A stretch of 36,702 nucleotides of DNA, from contig JAISUP010000015.1 in the NCBI GenBank assembly GCA_031272025.1, positions 1-36,702 of the forward strand. The letters are read 5' to 3'. Shown here piece after piece: positions 15,866-36,114 of the stretch (position 1 is the stretch's first letter; each line of letters begins with the position of its first letter). The notes beneath the pieces were generated by a model. The model did no database searches, had not been told where the DNA came from, and saw only the letters and a program-made list of their open reading frames with translations. This DNA is from Bacteroidales bacterium (GTDB lineage Bacteria > Bacteroidota > Bacteroidia > Bacteroidales > WCHB1-69). Both the position numbers and the translations under genes were made by a program.

Positions 15866-18148
15866 ATGGATAAAAAGATATGGCTTGCTGTCGGCATTTG
15901 GCTTTGGGGGTTGGTCAGCCTCCAAGCACAGGATACCCTGAAAGGCAGCGTGACCGAACATGATGCGAGCAAGAAACAACCTTTGCCTTTGGCGGGTGCG
16001 ATATTGCAGTGGCATCAAACCGATGTGGGGACATATTCCGGCGCGGACGGACATTTTGTATTGCCTAAGGTGAAGTCAACCCGTGTACTTATCGTGAAAT
16101 ACCCGCGCTATGCCACGGACACAATTATCATAGAAGATGGGCAACAAATTTTGAATGTCTTATTGTCTTCGGCAAACATGTTGCAATCGGTGGAAGTGGG
16201 CTCTTCGCGCGGCGATTTTATTTCCGTGAAACCCATTCTCACTATGGTTATCGGGACAGAAGGGCTTCGAAAAGCCGCTTGTTGTAACCTGTCGGAAAGT
16301 TTTGACAACAGCGCGGCGGTGGACGTGGAATATAGCGATGCCGTTACCGGGGCTAAACAAATTTCGATGCTGGGACTCGCGGGAGTGTACAGTCAAATCT
16401 TGCTCGAAAATATTCCTTATGTAAGACTGCTTTCCCAACAGTTTGGACTGGCTTTTGTTCCCGGTTCGTGGATGGAATCAATTAGCATATCCAAAGGGAC
16501 ATCTTCCGTGATAAATGGATATGAAGGTATTACGGGACAAATTAACGTAGACTACAAGAAACCGGAAACGAATAGGGAAAAAATGTTTCTCAATCTTTAT
16601 GGCAATTCTCAAGGCAAGGGGGAACTGAATTTAAACAGCAGGGTAGGGGTGAACGAACATGCTTCTACCTTGTTCTTTCTTCATGCCGAAAGTCAAATGG
16701 CAAAATGGGACATGAATCACGACCATTTTCTTGATGTCCCGCTCAATTACAGTGTCAACGCCATGAATCGTTGGGATTATCACCGTGGGGCATGGGAAGG
16801 TCGTACTTTGCTTTCCTACTTGTGGGAAGACCGCGTTGGGGGCGAGAAAGGTTATCGACCTAACGAAACCCCAACAACTTTTGATGGCATTGTCCCAACC
16901 GATTCGAACAAGGTGAAATGGGGATTCTTTAATCGCACGCACCGGTTAAATGCAGTTACCAAAAACGGGTTCTTGCTGAAAGGAGATGACGAGAGCGTGG
17001 GCACGATTCTATCTTTCACTTTTCACGATACCCGTGCCATCTATGGACCGCGAAATTATGATGCTCGACAATATAGCGGTTATGTCAATATTCTTTATTC
17101 TAATAAATATGGTCGAAAAAAACGCTCCAAACTCACTATGGGGGGGAGTTTGCAATTCGACTATCTTAATGAACAATTGACTTTCTTATCGGGGGGCGAG
17201 TGGCTTACTACCCCGGGGATCATGCCACAACGAATAGAAACCGTACCGGGGGTATTTGTTGAATATGCCTACGTGCTTGATGAAAAATTAGTGGTCATGC
17301 CTGCTTTTCGCGTGGATTATAACACGCTTTATAAAGAGATATTTTGGACACCGCGGTTTCATCTCAAATGGATGCCTCTCCCTAACACGTCATTGCGGCT
17401 TTCGGCAGGAAAAGGTTATCGCACCCCCGCGATTCTTTCCGAAAACAGCGCGTTGCTCGTGAGCAATCGACAATTCGCGTTTCCCGCTACTTTGCAACCG
17501 GAAGAAGCCTATAACGGGGGCATAAGTTTAGTGCAGTCGTTCGTGATGAAAGGTGGAAAATCTTCTTTCTCTATTGATTATTATTATACTCGTTTTGTGC
17601 GGCAGTGGGTTATTGACCTTGACCAAGATCCCCGTTGGGTGTATATTTACAACCTGCAAGGGCAGTCGTATTCTCATTCTATTCAGGGCGAGTTCACGCT
17701 TTTCCCGCTACCCCGTTTTGAAATCACGTTAGCATATCGCTACAATCATGTGCAACAAACCACCAATAATCAATTGCAGGCAAAGGCGTTGACCGTGCCT
17801 CATAAAGTATTGCTTAATTTGCACTACGCGACCAAATTTGATAAATGGAAGTTCAATATTACCGCGCAATACAACAGCAGCACCCGTTTGCCCGACACGA
17901 AACAAAATCCACAAGAATATCAATTACCTTCGTATTCAAAAGATTATGTAGTATTGAACGCGCAAATTACTAAGAAATTTCGTAAAATAGAAGTCTATGT
18001 CGGGGGCGAGAATTTGCTCAATTATCGGCAACAAAACCCGCTTATATCTGCTCATCAGCCTTTTGGAGACTATTTTGATGCTTCTATCATTTATGCCCCT
18101 ATTATGGGAATCATGGGCTACGCGGGAATGCGATGGACCATCAACTGA
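15866..18148 (+). CDS. TonB-dependent outer membrane receptor with carboxypeptidase-regulatory-like N-terminal domain
   Basis: 760 aa; LKGSVTEHD..., plug and beta-barrel features, MRWTIN C-terminus. Confidence 0.9.
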   Translation: MDKKIWLAVGIWLWGLVSLQAQDTLKGSVTEHDASKKQPLPLAGAILQWHQTDVGTYSGADGHFVLPKVKSTRVLIVKYPRYATDTIIIEDGQQILNVLLSSANMLQSVEVGSSRGDFISVKPILTMVIGTEGLRKAACCNLSESFDNSAAVDVEYSDAVTGAKQISMLGLAGVYSQILLENIPYVRLLSQQFGLAFVPGSWMESISISKGTSSVINGYEGITGQINVDYKKPETNREKMFLNLYGNSQGKGELNLNSRVGVNEHASTLFFLHAESQMAKWDMNHDHFLDVPLNYSVNAMNRWDYHRGAWEGRTLLSYLWEDRVGGEKGYRPNETPTTFDGIVPTDSNKVKWGFFNRTHRLNAVTKNGFLLKGDDESVGTILSFTFHDTRAIYGPRNYDARQYSGYVNILYSNKYGRKKRSKLTMGGSLQFDYLNEQLTFLSGGEWLTTPGIMPQRIETVPGVFVEYAYVLDEKLVVMPAFRVDYNTLYKEIFWTPRFHLKWMPLPNTSLRLSAGKGYRTPAILSENSALLVSNRQFAFPATLQPEEAYNGGISLVQSFVMKGGKSSFSIDYYYTRFVRQWVIDLDQDPRWVYIYNLQGQSYSHSIQGEFTLFPLPRFEITLAYRYNHVQQTTNNQLQAKALTVPHKVLLNLHYATKFDKWKFNITAQYNSSTRLPDTKQNPQEYQLPSYSKDYVVLNAQITKKFRKIEVYVGGENLLNYRQQNPLISAHQPFGDYFDASIIYAPIMGIMGYAGMRWTIN

Positions 18149-18188
18149 TCATGCAGGGTAGGCACTTTTATTTTAGATAATGAATATA

Positions 18189-19484
18189 TTACCGAGACAT
18201 ATCAAAATAGAGTGCCCACACTTGTTCCAATCGTTTGGCTATATGAAAAGCCAAAAACGGGGGGACGGCATTTCCTATGACTTTGTATGCCATGGACGGG
18301 CTCACGATAAAACGTTGCCGTTGTCCTTCGGGACGGATAAAAGAATAGTCAGGGGGGAAAGTTTGAATTAGGGCACATTCTCTGGGGGTTAGTCGCCTTT
18401 CAAGATAGCCTCGCGATAACTCTTCGTTCATTTGTCCGCCATGTTCTATCGACAAGCGGCGAAATTCGATATTACCATGATGCTCCGCCCGAATCGTGGG
18501 GGATACGTCTTGTAAGTTTACCTCCCGTTGTCCTTGACAATGTTTGCCCATGTAGCGGGCTTTGGAATAATATTTTTGGTCAGGGTCGCGACTATGTTCC
18601 GGTTCCGACAAAGGGGCAAAGATTTTTTGCAAAGATACAGGAGGCATCAAATGGGGGTGCGCGTTGCTGCTGTACGCGTGGGTAGGTTTCGGGTAAGGAT
18701 CGTAGGTCTCGGGAATCGTGTCTTGTTGTAAATTTTGCAAAGCCTCTGTTCGTAAGGCGGATTTGCGAATACCGATAAAGATGACCCTTTCACGCGATTG
18801 AGGTACGCCATAGTCTGCCGCTTGTAAAACCCGCGGTGGCAATACCAAATACCCTTGCCCGCAACTATTGGAAAAATCTTGCTGAATAATATCTTTTACA
18901 TTCGACAAATTGACTAAGCCCTTAACGTTTTCGGCAATAAAGATTTTGGGTTGCACGAGTTCTATCACCGACTTCATCCAGATGTATAATTTCCCGCGGG
19001 TTTCTTCGCTCGCGACCGGCAAAGTAATGATTTGTCCATGATGGTCTTTATGAGACTGAAAACCACGTCTTTTTCCCGCCAAACTGAAATCTTGACAAGG
19101 AAAGCCGCCGGTAACGACATCTATTTGTTGGGGAAAACTCCATTGTCTTGCCCGTGCCTGTTTTACCAAATCTACGATACTTTCCGTATGAAACATTTCA
19201 GGGAGATGACCTCTGGGCACGAAATACGATTGCCATGTTCGAGCGGCGGCAGGCAAAATGTCATTGGCAAAAACCGTGCGAAATGGAGTCCCCCTTAATT
19301 GTACATAATAATCGTCTATCTCGTTTTCAATAAAATATCTTGCAAACTGTGGGTGAATGCAGGGACGGGGTACCCTAAAATTTCCTTCCATGCCCAAATC
19401 CATGCCTCCACAACCGGAAAAAAGAGAAAGTACGCGAAGACTACCCTGACTAATTTTTGCTTCTTGTTGTTTTTTATTGCTCAT
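18189..19484 (-). CDS. DNA (cytosine-5-)-methyltransferase
   Basis: Motif I LSLFSGCGGMDLGMEG, IV GGFPCQDFSLAGKRRGF, VI ENVKGL, VIII QSRERVIFIGIR, IX RRLTPRECALIQTFP, X YKVIGNAVPPFLAFHIAKRL. Confidence 0.96.
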   Translation of the reverse strand: MSNKKQQEAKISQGSLRVLSLFSGCGGMDLGMEGNFRVPRPCIHPQFARYFIENEIDDYYVQLRGTPFRTVFANDILPAAARTWQSYFVPRGHLPEMFHTESIVDLVKQARARQWSFPQQIDVVTGGFPCQDFSLAGKRRGFQSHKDHHGQIITLPVASEETRGKLYIWMKSVIELVQPKIFIAENVKGLVNLSNVKDIIQQDFSNSCGQGYLVLPPRVLQAADYGVPQSRERVIFIGIRKSALRTEALQNLQQDTIPETYDPYPKPTHAYSSNAHPHLMPPVSLQKIFAPLSEPEHSRDPDQKYYSKARYMGKHCQGQREVNLQDVSPTIRAEHHGNIEFRRLSIEHGGQMNEELSRGYLERRLTPRECALIQTFPPDYSFIRPEGQRQRFIVSPSMAYKVIGNAVPPFLAFHIAKRLEQVWALYFDMSR

Positions 19485-20181
19485 ATATTGCTGTTATTAT
19501 CCATTTTTTACGGGGATTATACCCCTTTTTACGCGAAAATTCGGTACAGGCAACATTCAGTTGACAGTTGTTACAAGCCGGTGCTTTCGCGGTACATACC
19601 GTAGCGGCATAATCCAATATTGCCCAATTTAAGGTTTTACAATCTTTGGTTTGTACAATTTGATTTGCCATAGATTGTATTGCCTTGTCGTGCCGCACAT
19701 CTACGTATTCTCCCGGCGAAAAATACCGCTTGAGCAGTCGAGACATGTTCACGTCTAATAAAGGTTTTCGTTTGTTTAAGATAAAGAGTTCGTAGGCATT
19801 TCGTAGATACAACCCGCTAAAACCGGCTTCCTGTAATTCGGCTGGCTTTATTTTAGGAGTATATTCACGAGTTGCCAAACGTTTTTTCATGCCTTGTGCC
19901 AACGTGTAAAGACGAGTAGCCCGCTGACGGTGTAAACCCAACGGTTTCATCATGTCTTCCAATTCTACTAATGTAGCCCCCATTAAGGCATCCCAATGTG
20001 GATATTTCTCGAAAAAAAAAGCATAATATTTTGCAACGGTTTCTGCTTTCGTGCGTTGCAATAATATTTCCGAAATAATAGTCTTGTAATAACCTATCCC
20101 TTCTTCTCGCCAAGGAAAAGAACGACGATTTTTTTCAAACCATTGTAAGAGCACTTCCCGAAAATAATCTTGTTTGCGCAA
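19474..20181 (-). CDS. HhH-GPD DNA glycosylase with C-terminal 4Fe-4S loop, MIG (T/G mismatch)-like
   Basis: FPWREEGIGYYKTIISEILLQRTKAETV, LDVNMSRLLKRYF catalytic-Asp region, C-x6-C-x2-C-x5-C (CTAKAPACNNCQLNVAC); overlaps MTase start by 11 bp. Confidence 0.88.
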   Translation of the reverse strand: MRKQDYFREVLLQWFEKNRRSFPWREEGIGYYKTIISEILLQRTKAETVAKYYAFFFEKYPHWDALMGATLVELEDMMKPLGLHRQRATRLYTLAQGMKKRLATREYTPKIKPAELQEAGFSGLYLRNAYELFILNKRKPLLDVNMSRLLKRYFSPGEYVDVRHDKAIQSMANQIVQTKDCKTLNWAILDYAATVCTAKAPACNNCQLNVACTEFSRKKGYNPRKKWIITAIYEQ

Positions 20182-20193
20182 CGACTTGTTTTT

Positions 20194-22650
20194 TTACTTA
20201 TTACAATTTTTACAAACCATTTTTTTCACTTCGGCGTTATCAAAAATCGTAACGGGCAGTTTGTCAAACAAGGCACAAAGACGGGTTGGATTTTTGGCTA
20301 TTGCCATGTTTACCGATTTCGTGAAGAGCGCACCCAAATAGGTTTCGGGGCGATGTGCTGCCAAACTCACGTATGAAAATAGAAAATCTTCGCTAATGCT
20401 TTCATCCGACAAAAATGGGGTCATTAAATCTAAGGCAAACATGTAATCATAGTTTTTGATATAATAAGATGCTAATTTATATGCAGTTTGCCACGAAGAC
20501 AATTTGTCTCCGGTTAAGGTTTTGATTTTGGCATAGATATTTGTAAGCAGTTGCGGCTGTGTAGATGAAGGGTGTGTAGTTAAGTAATTGATAAATTTGA
20601 GTTGCCATTCCAAGTTTAACAAGTCTATTTTTTTCTTAGGTAAAGTATTTATACTGTATAGTTTATCTACGGCTGCCTGTAATTTGGCGATCTCGTTTTC
20701 TGCCATTATGGTGGTTTGATAAAGGCTAATGACATTCATGTTGTATTGTGCCGCGGGATTAGCGGGATTATAGTCGTATATTTTTTTCATGTCTGCCGCT
20801 ATGGATTCTGTCATTTTGGGTTGCACGAGATATTTCAGGTAGCATTCGTTGAGCAGGAAAGTTTGTCTCGAAGCCAAATCGGGCACTTGCATCCCCGCGA
20901 GAATTTGGGTTTCGTATTTTTGTTTTTCCACGTGATCCATGAGATATTTTTGTATGGCAATGGCTAATGGAAACTGTTTTTTGCGCCGCACGGATTCATT
21001 AAATTTATACAATGCCACGTTCAGGGCATTTTCGGGGGTATTCACGTTGAGCGAGAAATGGATGACTGCTCGCATGTAATGATGTTTGGTCAAAAAAGTA
21101 TCTAATTCTCTGGCTACTTGATTTTTATTTTTAGTCAGTTTTTCTATTACCTGTTCTTTGGGTTCCAAAATTAAGTAGTAATATTCGGCACTGTATAGCA
21201 AATCTTTTTTAAAGTCGCTCCACCCGTCGTCGGTACAGGATTCTATTTTCGCGGACGGGAAGCGCTTCGCGAAAGCCGCCGCCGCCGATTTGCCTTGCAT
21301 TTCTAATGCCTTCATGTAAGTAGCATTCTTCGCGTTGTCGAGCGATGTGTGCGCGATAATTTCTACTTTTGTTACCGTGTAAGCAGGCAATTTCATCGCC
21401 TTCATTTGAGGCTCAAAATCGGCATAAGTATAGGTAGTCTTTTTGGGCTTCATGGGCAAATCTATCGAACGGATAACCTCCTCTTCCGATGGAATATAAG
21501 CACCTGCCGGCTTCTCGGTTTGAAAATCAGGCAAAAAATTGATTTTTGTCTCAAATTCGGCATGTTTGCACTCTATATTTTTCTTAATAATGGTCCTACA
21601 AGCATATTTTCCTTCTTTAAGCACGATAACATTGATGTCGTAGTCGGCATTGGGGTCAATGGTTTCCGGAATTTTACAAACCGTAGCAATCAGTTTGGAA
21701 GATTTTTTATCTGCAATTTCGTTAGATTCCAATATTTTGGCAAAAGTAAAAGATTTGGTTACTGTTCCGCGAAAAGGTTTACTGTTATCCACGATAGTCG
21801 CGTGTTCGCAGTCATATTGTTTGTGTTGCACGAAGTCGAGTACTATCTCATCGCCTTCTTTTCCTATCATTTTCCTAATGGCACGATAGTCATCACACGA
21901 GAATATCACGTCATCGCCTTTGACCGTGAAACAAGAGGACAAGATTTCCATAGAAATATCTTTGCTGCAACGGGCACATACCTGAGCGTTGTATGGCGAT
22001 ATGCCCGCTCGCCCTTTCGTGTAGGGCAAATTCTTATCGGAAGGGGTAGTTTGATACGTTTGGAAGATGCGGTCATTTCCCAATATCAAAGAACCGTACA
22101 TGTTGCGAAGGTTGTTGTCGGGTTTTAGTCCAATGCCCACGCAAGTGTACGAAGAATTTAAAAGAATCTCCGCGGTTTTTAAATTCTTGAGCAAAGGCTG
22201 TATCAATGCTAAACAAACATCGTAATAAGAATAGTCGCTATCGCCCGCGTATGCTTTGGCTTTGAGTAGCAGTTCTGTCCCTTGTGTGGCAAGCCCGTAT
22301 TTTTTCAACCGCATGTTCAATGTTTTGTATTGAGCAATGTTTTCCCCTGTTTTCTCGTCTTTTGACGCTTGATAATTTGCCTGAAACTGTGCCGTGGAAT
22401 CTATTTTGCTGTCATGTTTTAAGGCAGGCAAAAACGAGTATTGTGCACGGGCAGCATCCAACATGTCGCTCATACATTGATACAAAACTTTTTCCGAATA
22501 AGTACCCGCGTTAAAATTCTTCTGATACTTATCGTTTTTTTTCACCACCTCCGGCGCGAAATTAAGATAAGGATTTTCATTTTGCGAAAATGATAATTCG
22601 CTCATTACCAATAAGCAAAAACATAAAAAAAAGATATTTATTCTTCTCAT
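20194..22650 (-). CDS. Large secreted protein with N-terminal CAP/SCP-like domain and possible OmpA-like segment
   Basis: 818 aa; signal peptide; ARAQYSFLPALKHDSKIDSTAQFQANYQA...GENIA...LLNSSYTCVGIGL; VEIIAHTSLDNAKNATYMKALEMQGKSAAAAFAKRFPSAKI. Confidence 0.65.
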   Translation of the reverse strand: MRRINIFFLCFCLLVMSELSFSQNENPYLNFAPEVVKKNDKYQKNFNAGTYSEKVLYQCMSDMLDAARAQYSFLPALKHDSKIDSTAQFQANYQASKDEKTGENIAQYKTLNMRLKKYGLATQGTELLLKAKAYAGDSDYSYYDVCLALIQPLLKNLKTAEILLNSSYTCVGIGLKPDNNLRNMYGSLILGNDRIFQTYQTTPSDKNLPYTKGRAGISPYNAQVCARCSKDISMEILSSCFTVKGDDVIFSCDDYRAIRKMIGKEGDEIVLDFVQHKQYDCEHATIVDNSKPFRGTVTKSFTFAKILESNEIADKKSSKLIATVCKIPETIDPNADYDINVIVLKEGKYACRTIIKKNIECKHAEFETKINFLPDFQTEKPAGAYIPSEEEVIRSIDLPMKPKKTTYTYADFEPQMKAMKLPAYTVTKVEIIAHTSLDNAKNATYMKALEMQGKSAAAAFAKRFPSAKIESCTDDGWSDFKKDLLYSAEYYYLILEPKEQVIEKLTKNKNQVARELDTFLTKHHYMRAVIHFSLNVNTPENALNVALYKFNESVRRKKQFPLAIAIQKYLMDHVEKQKYETQILAGMQVPDLASRQTFLLNECYLKYLVQPKMTESIAADMKKIYDYNPANPAAQYNMNVISLYQTTIMAENEIAKLQAAVDKLYSINTLPKKKIDLLNLEWQLKFINYLTTHPSSTQPQLLTNIYAKIKTLTGDKLSSWQTAYKLASYYIKNYDYMFALDLMTPFLSDESISEDFLFSYVSLAAHRPETYLGALFTKSVNMAIAKNPTRLCALFDKLPVTIFDNAEVKKMVCKNCNK

Positions 22651-34402: not shown

Positions 34403-34887
34403 TTACTTCCTTTCGGTAATTTCCTTCACCACTTTTGCCGGTCTGCCTGTCGCTATTGTCCACGCCGGAATATCTTTCGTAACCAACGAACCTGCGCCTA
34501 CAATGGCGCCTTCGCCAACAGTTACACCCGGCATAACAATTGTACCCATTCCCAACATACAGCCTTTTTTCAATACAATCGGTTTTCTGTGATACGGTAA
34601 AGATGCTGAATCATCCCCAATATAATAATCCGTTAAGTCGCGTTTATGACATAACAACAAACAGCGATTCGTTATGTGAACGTGGTCTTCCAACTCAATT
34701 AAATCAGTGTTTGTCATATCCACCCAAACTTCGTATCCGATATAACAGTTTTTCCGATTTTCGCCCCCATCCATCGCCAGATAATCGGGCGGATTTTGCG
34801 ATAATTAAGAGGCGACAGAATAACGGAATACATCGAATATTTCAGCAAAAAAGCGTTGCGGATGTGCTTGAATACGGATTTAATCAT
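34403..34887 (-). pseudogene. Hexapeptide-repeat (LbH) acyltransferase, frameshifted
   Basis: MIKSVFKHIRNAFLLKYS..IRPIIWRWMGAKIGK in one frame continues as NCYIGYEVWVDMTNTDLIELEDHVHIT..GEGAIVGAGSLVTKDIPAWTIATGRPAKVV in another; a one-base change in an A-tract restores continuity. Confidence 0.8.
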
Positions 34888-36114
34888 TTTTGCAACAGAT
34901 ACATTACCGTATTCTTTTTCCGAGAAATTTAATCCTAATAATTTCAAAAAGCGGTAAGACACTCTGAAGCCGTAAGCATTCCGTTTCATAACCTTTATCT
35001 TATTGTTTATGCCCTCCACTTTTCCTGTTGATATATGACAGTCGTACCATGCAAGTATCCCCGTTCTGTGAGCCATAATGGTATTTGCCATCTTTATTAA
35101 CAGAGGGACTTTGCTCTCTGTAGCCTGAGCCACCCAGTCAAGAATAACATTCTCGGCCTCCTCCTTGCTGATTTGCATCCATATTTCCTTGAGATGTTCC
35201 TTGAGATAGTATGCTTGCGATAGAGGCCGATTCATTTCCAAGGCATTTTCAAGTCTTGTCTTATACTTCGTGTCATAGATGTCTGTTCCGTTCATAAGTA
35301 AAAGATATCGTGTTCCTTTCAATACCTTACGCTTATTGATGTCCTTTTCCATGTGGTATTGTGCCTTGCGTATAACATCCAGTTTATCGTTCATCAGTTT
35401 TACCACGTGGAAATGGTCAAAAACATGAACGGCATCCGGACAATTCTCATATACGGACGCGATAAAAGCAGCTGACAGATCCGTTGTGATGTATTTGATG
35501 TTGATACCTCTCTTCTTTATCCGCTTCCAGAACTTATTTAAGGCTTCGCAACCTTTTCCATAACCGACGTAGAGAATACGACCGCTCCTTAAATCAACCA
35601 CAATTGTCTTATACACATGCCCTTTCCTAACCGAAAATTCATCTATACCAATGCTTTCAACACCATCTAATGAAGGTGGAGAATAACGATATTCCAGGTA
35701 ATTTGTATGTATCTCTTTAATTGTGTCCCATGAGATTCCCAACAGGTTGGCTGTATCTTTTAGAGTCATGCCCCTGAGAAGTCCGACAACGTATTTCGCA
35801 AAGCGATGGGTATAGCTACGGCTACCTGTGGCAAAGGGGATTGTCTCTTGTTGGTCGTAAGCACACTCTTTGTTCTTGCACTTGTAACGCTGCACTTTCA
35901 TACGAATTATCAACTTTTTGCCACCAATGGGAAGATCGATGAAGTCACGAATGCGATAGCCATTCTTCACCAAATGACGATGACCGCACTGTGGACATAC
36001 TTTCTGGCGCTCTTTTGATTCCACATGCAAGATAATTGTGTTACCTTTGTATTCCTCACGAGTGCATCTGTGGTTATAGAGACCCCATGCATGATATAGA
36101 AAACTGCTGTTCAT
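34714..36114 (-). mobile_element. ISL3-type transposase ORF, probably 3'-truncated, reading into the acyltransferase
   Basis: CPQCGHRHLVKNGYRIRDFIDLPIGGKKLIIRMKVQRYKCKNKECAYDQ zinc ribbon, IGIDEFSVRKGHVYKTIVVDLRSGRIL, KVEGINNKIKVMKRNAYGFR. Confidence 0.9.

Follow-up and report, generated by a model that had tools for sequence, protein, structure and literature searches.

A MIG-type DNA glycosylase gene overlapping a cytosine-5 methyltransferase gene in a Bacteroidales genome: probable modification-and-repair half of a restriction-modification system

In a Bacteroidales genome the gene of a complete C5-cytosine DNA methyltransferase (MTase) is overlapped by the gene of a small DNA glycosylase, and no restriction endonuclease (REase) adjoins the pair. 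The question raised by this locus is what a writer of m5C and a base-excision enzyme are doing together, and whether a nuclease belongs to them. The answer which we favor, with a probability of about 0.82, is that a Bacteroidota type II restriction-modification (R-M) system has lost its REase here, leaving the modification-and-repair half as the present locus, and that a MIG-type glycosylase excises T opposite G in the place of the very-short-patch endonuclease (Vsr).

Layout of the locus and the methyltransferase

The window, i.e. the whole stretch of 36,702 nucleotides that was analysed, contains the following features at the locus:

15866-18148, + strand: convergent TonB-receptor gene, 40 bp from the MTase stop
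18149-18188, no strand: 40-bp spacer at the position of the REase gene in relatives, without REase or remnant here
18189-19484, - strand: C5-cytosine DNA methyltransferase, 431 aa (PF00145, intact catalytic motifs)
19474-19484, - strand: 11 bp shared by the end of the glycosylase gene and the start of the MTase gene; fused relatives have a linker of about 30 aa here and one continuous ORF
19474-20181, - strand: predicted MIG-type HhH-GPD/[4Fe-4S] DNA glycosylase, 235 aa (Pfam HhH-GPD, 1KEA sequence and fold match, tree, pocket residues)

The MTase ORF has 431 codons and an ATG start, and the glycosylase ORF has 235 codons and begins with TTG, the sole ATG, GTG or TTG after the previous in-frame stop. 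Both ORFs and their overlap of exactly 11 bp, in different frames, were reproduced as given in a preliminary description of this DNA, and the match of each domain lies well beyond chance expectation (Pfam HhH-GPD, 3.1e-14; Pfam DNA_methylase, 1.1e-51). The two genes are presumably translationally coupled. The same description saw no endonuclease, which agrees with the window ORFs on both flanks: neither a REase nor a REase remnant adjoins the pair, the TonB-receptor gene follows after the 40-bp gap, and on the other side an 818-aa secreted protein (20194-22650, - strand) is encoded 12 bp upstream of the glycosylase, on the same strand and in the same frame. This protein has no Pfam family match, and three more genomes of this genus have copies 43-50% identical to it, set among different neighbors. 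A clean empty site was sought by synteny of the window and none was obtained, the 818-aa gene being kept in the genus and the flanking genes being variable. The module contains no GGCC, CTAG or AGCT and 11 CGCG, and its oligonucleotide signature is that of the rest of the window; therefore a very recent arrival is probably to be discounted. No tRNA or Rfam features were found. Close to the end of the window there is an ISL3-family transposase gene (34714-36114, - strand).

The MTase is the assembly's single PF00145 match. The C5-cytosine MTase motifs I, IV (PCQ), VI (ENV), VIII (QxRxR) and IX/X are present, with GGFPCQDFS, ENVKG, QSRERV and GNAVPP intact. It is 59-64% identical to the MTase parts of the fusions described below and to a Parabacteroides plasmid MTase, and 58% identical to the MTase of the Psychrobacter plasmid pP60P2, whose REase is a predicted CGCG cutter (PMC3632715). 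Because the site predicted for this homologous system is CGCG, the target of the window MTase is probably CGCG as well.

Fused relatives and the missing endonuclease

The glycosylase was searched for in 84,980 species genomes, which gave 28 loci, with an m5C MTase within 5 kb at 19 of them. Eleven of the 28 are fusions of glycosylase and MTase (ten distinct sequences, L045 and L047 being apparently identical), and a stop interrupts one of them. In G001, a genome from the same genus, the two parts form one ORF of 658 aa, with the gene of a 349-aa protein only a few bases further on; a second copy in G001 is also fused, with a truncated REase protein. Fusions of about 660-710 aa are present in G001 and in eight further Bacteroidota MAGs, mostly followed by the same REase family of about 350 aa: downstream of the 11 fusions the REase is full in seven, truncated in one, in fragments in two (one at a contig end) and missing in one (L052). 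The 349-aa protein is recognised by a PADLOC model for type II REases (4e-32) and a PD...EVK motif is invariant in seven homologues; no relatives of the family were found in PDB or Pfam, and its structure model is weak (pLDDT 61). Directly upstream of the G001 fusion and REase lies an AbiEi_3 antitoxin/regulator gene (L038:3369-4145, - strand), for which no AbiEii partner was seen on the short contig. The preliminary description proposed a self-contained module for writing m5C and repairing its damage. The coupling of the glycosylase to an m5C MTase is borne out by this survey, and what has to be given up is a free-standing module, as the pair belongs to a Bacteroidota R-M lineage that is usually fused and followed by a REase. 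The lack of an endonuclease is therefore true of this genome and not of the family. The literature searched, with REBASE and subscription journals outside its scope, holds no mention of a glycosylase-MTase fusion.

The other loci show looser arrangements. Eight further glycosylase genes have other m5C MTases no more than 5 kb away, in some cases together with MvaI/BcnI-type REases or GHKL ATPases. At four loci (L054, L055, L056, L059) a MIG-type glycosylase is found near an m5C MTase and a protein of about 780 aa, which has two GHKL ATPase domains according to Pfam in L054 and L056 and is alike in size and opening sequence in L055 and L059; these are possibly defence loci with a MIG-type glycosylase in place of Vsr. 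No m5C MTase is nearby at L048, L051, L053, L058, L061 and L066. The lone glycosylases of Petrimonas and relatives (L048, L051, L053, L065) nest inside the fusion clade, as would be expected if the MTase was lost, and they are possibly a repair domain freed by that loss; in L051 and L053 the gene adjoins gapA and an ABC-F gene. Two Butyricimonas genomes have a lone glycosylase and, at a distant locus, the same MTase family (L039/L186 and L040/L183), with a REase after the MTase in one (G788) and without it in the other (G789). The order of the split and fused states was not settled by the MTase tree.

The MTase-REase core also occurs alone. Besides this genome the MTase family was found in four of 396 genomes of the phylum (L124-L127), each time with the REase behind it and no glycosylase, as is also the case on the Parabacteroides plasmid (L104). 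On a Klebsiella plasmid the same REase family is accompanied by an MTase and Vsr. T:G repair is thus an optional addition to the R-M core, for which one lineage uses Vsr and another a MIG-type protein. Since the fusions mostly precede a REase, the core is also found with no glycosylase and the REase family has been seen together with an MTase and Vsr, we conclude that the ancestor of the locus was an R-M system with a MIG-type glycosylase in the Vsr role. MIG-type genes are furthermore located beside or near different m5C MTases on plasmids of Thermus, Caldicellulosiruptor, Alisedimentitalea and Haloplanus, and likewise on Methanothermobacter pFV1 (L110); a homologue on a Gloeothece plasmid has no m5C MTase nearby. 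Nothing else speaks as strongly for the proposed function of the glycosylase as this recurrent association.

The preliminary description supposed that the nuclease was lost or encoded elsewhere, and its absence can be followed through the assembly. A profile of the REase family, the one family searched for, has no match in this assembly at E <= 1 and recovers both copies in G001, which served as a positive control. As the assembly is 91% complete (90.9%, in 104 contigs), the absence of the REase is probable, short of proof. That it was lost here, and not gained in the relatives, is suggested by the wide occurrence of the MTase-REase core. The R-M system could nevertheless be complete, its REase being in the missing ~9% of the genome or being an unrelated nuclease elsewhere, and the unlinked glycosylase of G788, distant from its MTase-REase pair, means that the parts of such a system can be scattered. 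We consider this rather unlikely, although it is the best of the alternatives, given that in nearly all relatives the REase comes right after the MTase, a position taken here by the 40-bp spacer on a continuous contig, and that CGCG is over-represented in this genome rather than avoided.

Assignment of the glycosylase

The glycosylase contains HhH-GPD only, with no Vsr domain detected by Pfam, NCBIfam or fold search, and the cysteines of the [4Fe-4S] cluster are intact (C196-C203-C206-C212, C-X6-C-X2-C-X5-C). Its top PDB sequence match is 1KEA, which is Mig.Mth, with 95.5 bits compared to at most 78 for MutY. For the AlphaFold model (pLDDT 87), Foldseek likewise ranks 1KEA first, and MutYs follow closely. 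In both sequence and fold the glycosylase is nearer to Mig.Mth than to MutY or to Nth.

A second, truncated MutY which removes A opposite 8-oxoG and stands beside the MTase by chance would be the obvious alternative, and several observations are in accordance with it. The best NCBIfam model is TIGR01084 mutY with 121 bits, and the PADLOC "Type II nicking endonuclease" model, which is built on Mig.Mth (533 bits), scores the MutY of this genome at 113 bits and the glycosylase at 101, so we did not retain it as proof of a MIG. The tyrosine after the hairpin (Tyr125), which had been put forward as a detail in favor of MIG, is shared by all 17 aligned Bacteroidota MutYs, that of this genome included; it therefore fails to separate MIG from MutY and was dropped as a marker. 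However, the 121 bits are far under the mutY cut-off of 286, the C-terminal 8-oxoG domain is missing, and a normal MutY (359 aa) is already present in the genome, as is Nth. In the tree all MIG-type sequences are separated from the 17 Bacteroidota MutYs (that of this genome and 16 others) by a split with 100/100 support, so that the glycosylase falls outside the MutYs; the basal branching order among the MIG-type sequences is weakly supported.

The pocket residues point largely in the same direction. Six of the seven thymine-pocket residues of Mig are kept, F22, E38, R43, A46, Y125 and D143 (Mig F27, E42, R47, A50, Y126 and D144). Y125, E38 and D143 are common to MutYs too, and the positions of Phe22, Arg43 and Ala46 are occupied by Leu/Met, Gln and Val/Ile in 16 of the 17 Bacteroidota MutYs, one MutY having Ala at the third. 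The specificity determinants V45 and Q182 of E. coli MutY correspond to A50 and L187 of Mig (PMC2714593), and in the glycosylase these adenine determinants are replaced by Ala46 and Trp186. It is consequently Phe22, Arg43, Ala46 and the lack of Gln at 186, together with the tree, that uphold the earlier preference for MIG over MutY or EndoIII. The pocket residues, the tree split and the missing C-terminal domain, along with the fusion to and linkage with m5C MTases, make the MutY identity very improbable. We therefore classify the glycosylase, on its sequence, fold and position in the tree, as MIG-type and not MutY, and it very probably repairs the C-to-T damage that results from cytosine methylation. 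No relatives were found in viral contigs; the phage matches look MutY-like.

Two features depart from Mig. The seventh pocket residue, L187, is Trp186 throughout the glycosylase family, so that to judge from the alignment the family is neither Mig nor MutY at this position; Trp is also found there in Alisedimentitalea, Thermus and apparently Nth. The HhH hairpin is, as described earlier, degenerate, with EAGFSGLYL in place of LPGVGKYT (AGFSG versus the canonical LPGVG). It is most degenerate in the clade of the window and the fusions, where the glycine preceding the conserved Tyr is missing or displaced, and a GQY hairpin is retained in relatives that are not paired with a window-type MTase. 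Because of the Trp for Leu187 and the hairpin without glycines, the substrate or the mode of DNA binding could differ from that of Mig. One possible reading of the hairpin is that the fused or co-made MTase now supplies the positioning on DNA.

Two further functions can be imagined for such an enzyme. In the first it would be a restriction effector that replaces the REase by base-excision attack on DNA left unmethylated by its partner, for which R.PabI-type restriction glycosylases are a precedent (PMC10273834), and there is no other effector in the window. This has even less to recommend it than a second MutY, as the fold is HhH-GPD/MIG and not the PabI half-pipe, the glycosylase coexists with the REase in most fused relatives, and it occupies the place of Vsr beside the same REase family. 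Least credible of all is removal of m5C itself in a ROS1/DME-like write-and-erase switch, for which the HhH-GPD domain with its Fe-S cluster, ROS1 at rank 50 in the fold list and a pocket altered by Trp at the Leu187 position may be cited, against which the T:G enzyme is nearest by sequence, tree and fold, a constitutive eraser fused to a writer would, by reasoning, be futile, and losing the methylation would presumably kill any cell that has the REase.

Mechanism, known systems and sequence composition

From the favored reading, a modification-and-repair half with T:G excision, the following sequence of events may be proposed. The MTase would write m5C at a short palindrome, probably CGCG, and spontaneous deamination of m5C (or C) would give a T:G (or U:G) mismatch. 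The glycosylase, according to its predicted activity, would remove T, and probably U, opposite G, after which AP endonuclease, polymerase and ligase of the host would restore C:G. The overlap here, and the covalent fusion in relatives, would keep writer and repairer in step, and the glycosylase would take the position held by Vsr in Dcm-type and other R-M systems.

The closest known system is that of Mig.Mth (Mig.MthI; MthTI R-M system, Methanothermobacter pFV1), which has the same fold, the Fe-S cluster, the setting in an m5C R-M locus, a similar size (about 221-235 aa across both) and the same thymine-pocket residues except one. The differences are an identity of only about 30%, the Trp for Leu187 and the degenerate hairpin; Mig is a separate unfused gene, whereas the window gene overlaps the MTase gene and its relatives are fused, and the Mig.Mth locus has MTase and REase families of another kind (NgoPII/MthTI type), whereas the window has no REase. 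Vsr with Dcm-type MTases follows the same logic of a T:G repair enzyme that travels with an m5C writer. Vsr has an unrelated fold and chemistry, however, and nicks DNA at T:G within its site, while MIG takes out the base and depends on an AP endonuclease. The MTase-REase cores of L104 and L124-L127 and the Psychrobacter pP60P2 system have MTases 57-62% identical to that of the window and no glycosylase; the former have the same REase family after the MTase, and pP60P2 shares the MTase only, its REase being different. MutY shares the HhH-GPD/Fe-S core, with a nearly as good fold match, and is set apart by its own C-terminal 8-oxoG domain, Val45/Gln182, housekeeping context and separate clade.

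Mig.Mth is usually presented as a single archaeal oddity explained by heat. The loci collected here indicate instead that MIG-type glycosylases are recurrent partners of bacterial m5C R-M systems, many from non-thermophiles, and are interchangeable with Vsr. The association of a MIG glycosylase with an m5C R-M system was already known; what is new is the bacterial, often MTase-fused and Vsr-replacing architecture. Fusion is the tightest possible coupling, in which one polypeptide writes m5C and carries a repair domain for its main hazard. A Vsr-like partner has been proposed in a 2026 study to stabilise solitary m5C MTases (PMC12907096), and the REase-free pair described here bears on the question of why such MTases persist.

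Sequence composition was examined in 313 kb of this genome (L128-L147), window included. CGCG is found at 1.78 times expectation and TGCG/CGCA at 0.50 times, and in another genome of the same genus (G003) CGCG is at 0.46 times expectation. At synonymous third positions before GCG codons the ratio of C to T is 921:108, compared to 375:422 expected from within-gene codon shuffles, which is the largest shift of all codon contexts. CGTG and several other CNNG words are also raised in this genome. Two genomes without the REase were compared: G795 was similar in a 35-kb sample and much weaker with more data (CGCG 1.27 times expectation), and G789 has no CGCG excess. Vsr is held to leave a trace of T:G-to-C:G over-repair at Dcm sites in E. 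coli. The richness in CGCG and poverty in TGCG are suggestive of such over-repair at CGCG. A wider proposal, that in Bacteroidota the writer and the T:G glycosylase were welded together and that a REase-free pair persists, converts TGCG to CGCG and so makes the genome rich in CGCG, is tentative, and we regard it as doubtful. Other words, most of them palindromes, are avoided in this genome, some to an extreme degree: GGCC and CTAG (each 0.03 of expectation), AGCT (0.07), GTCAC (0.19) and GATC (0.33), and in the 313-kb sample CATATG occurs 0 times compared to 89 expected.
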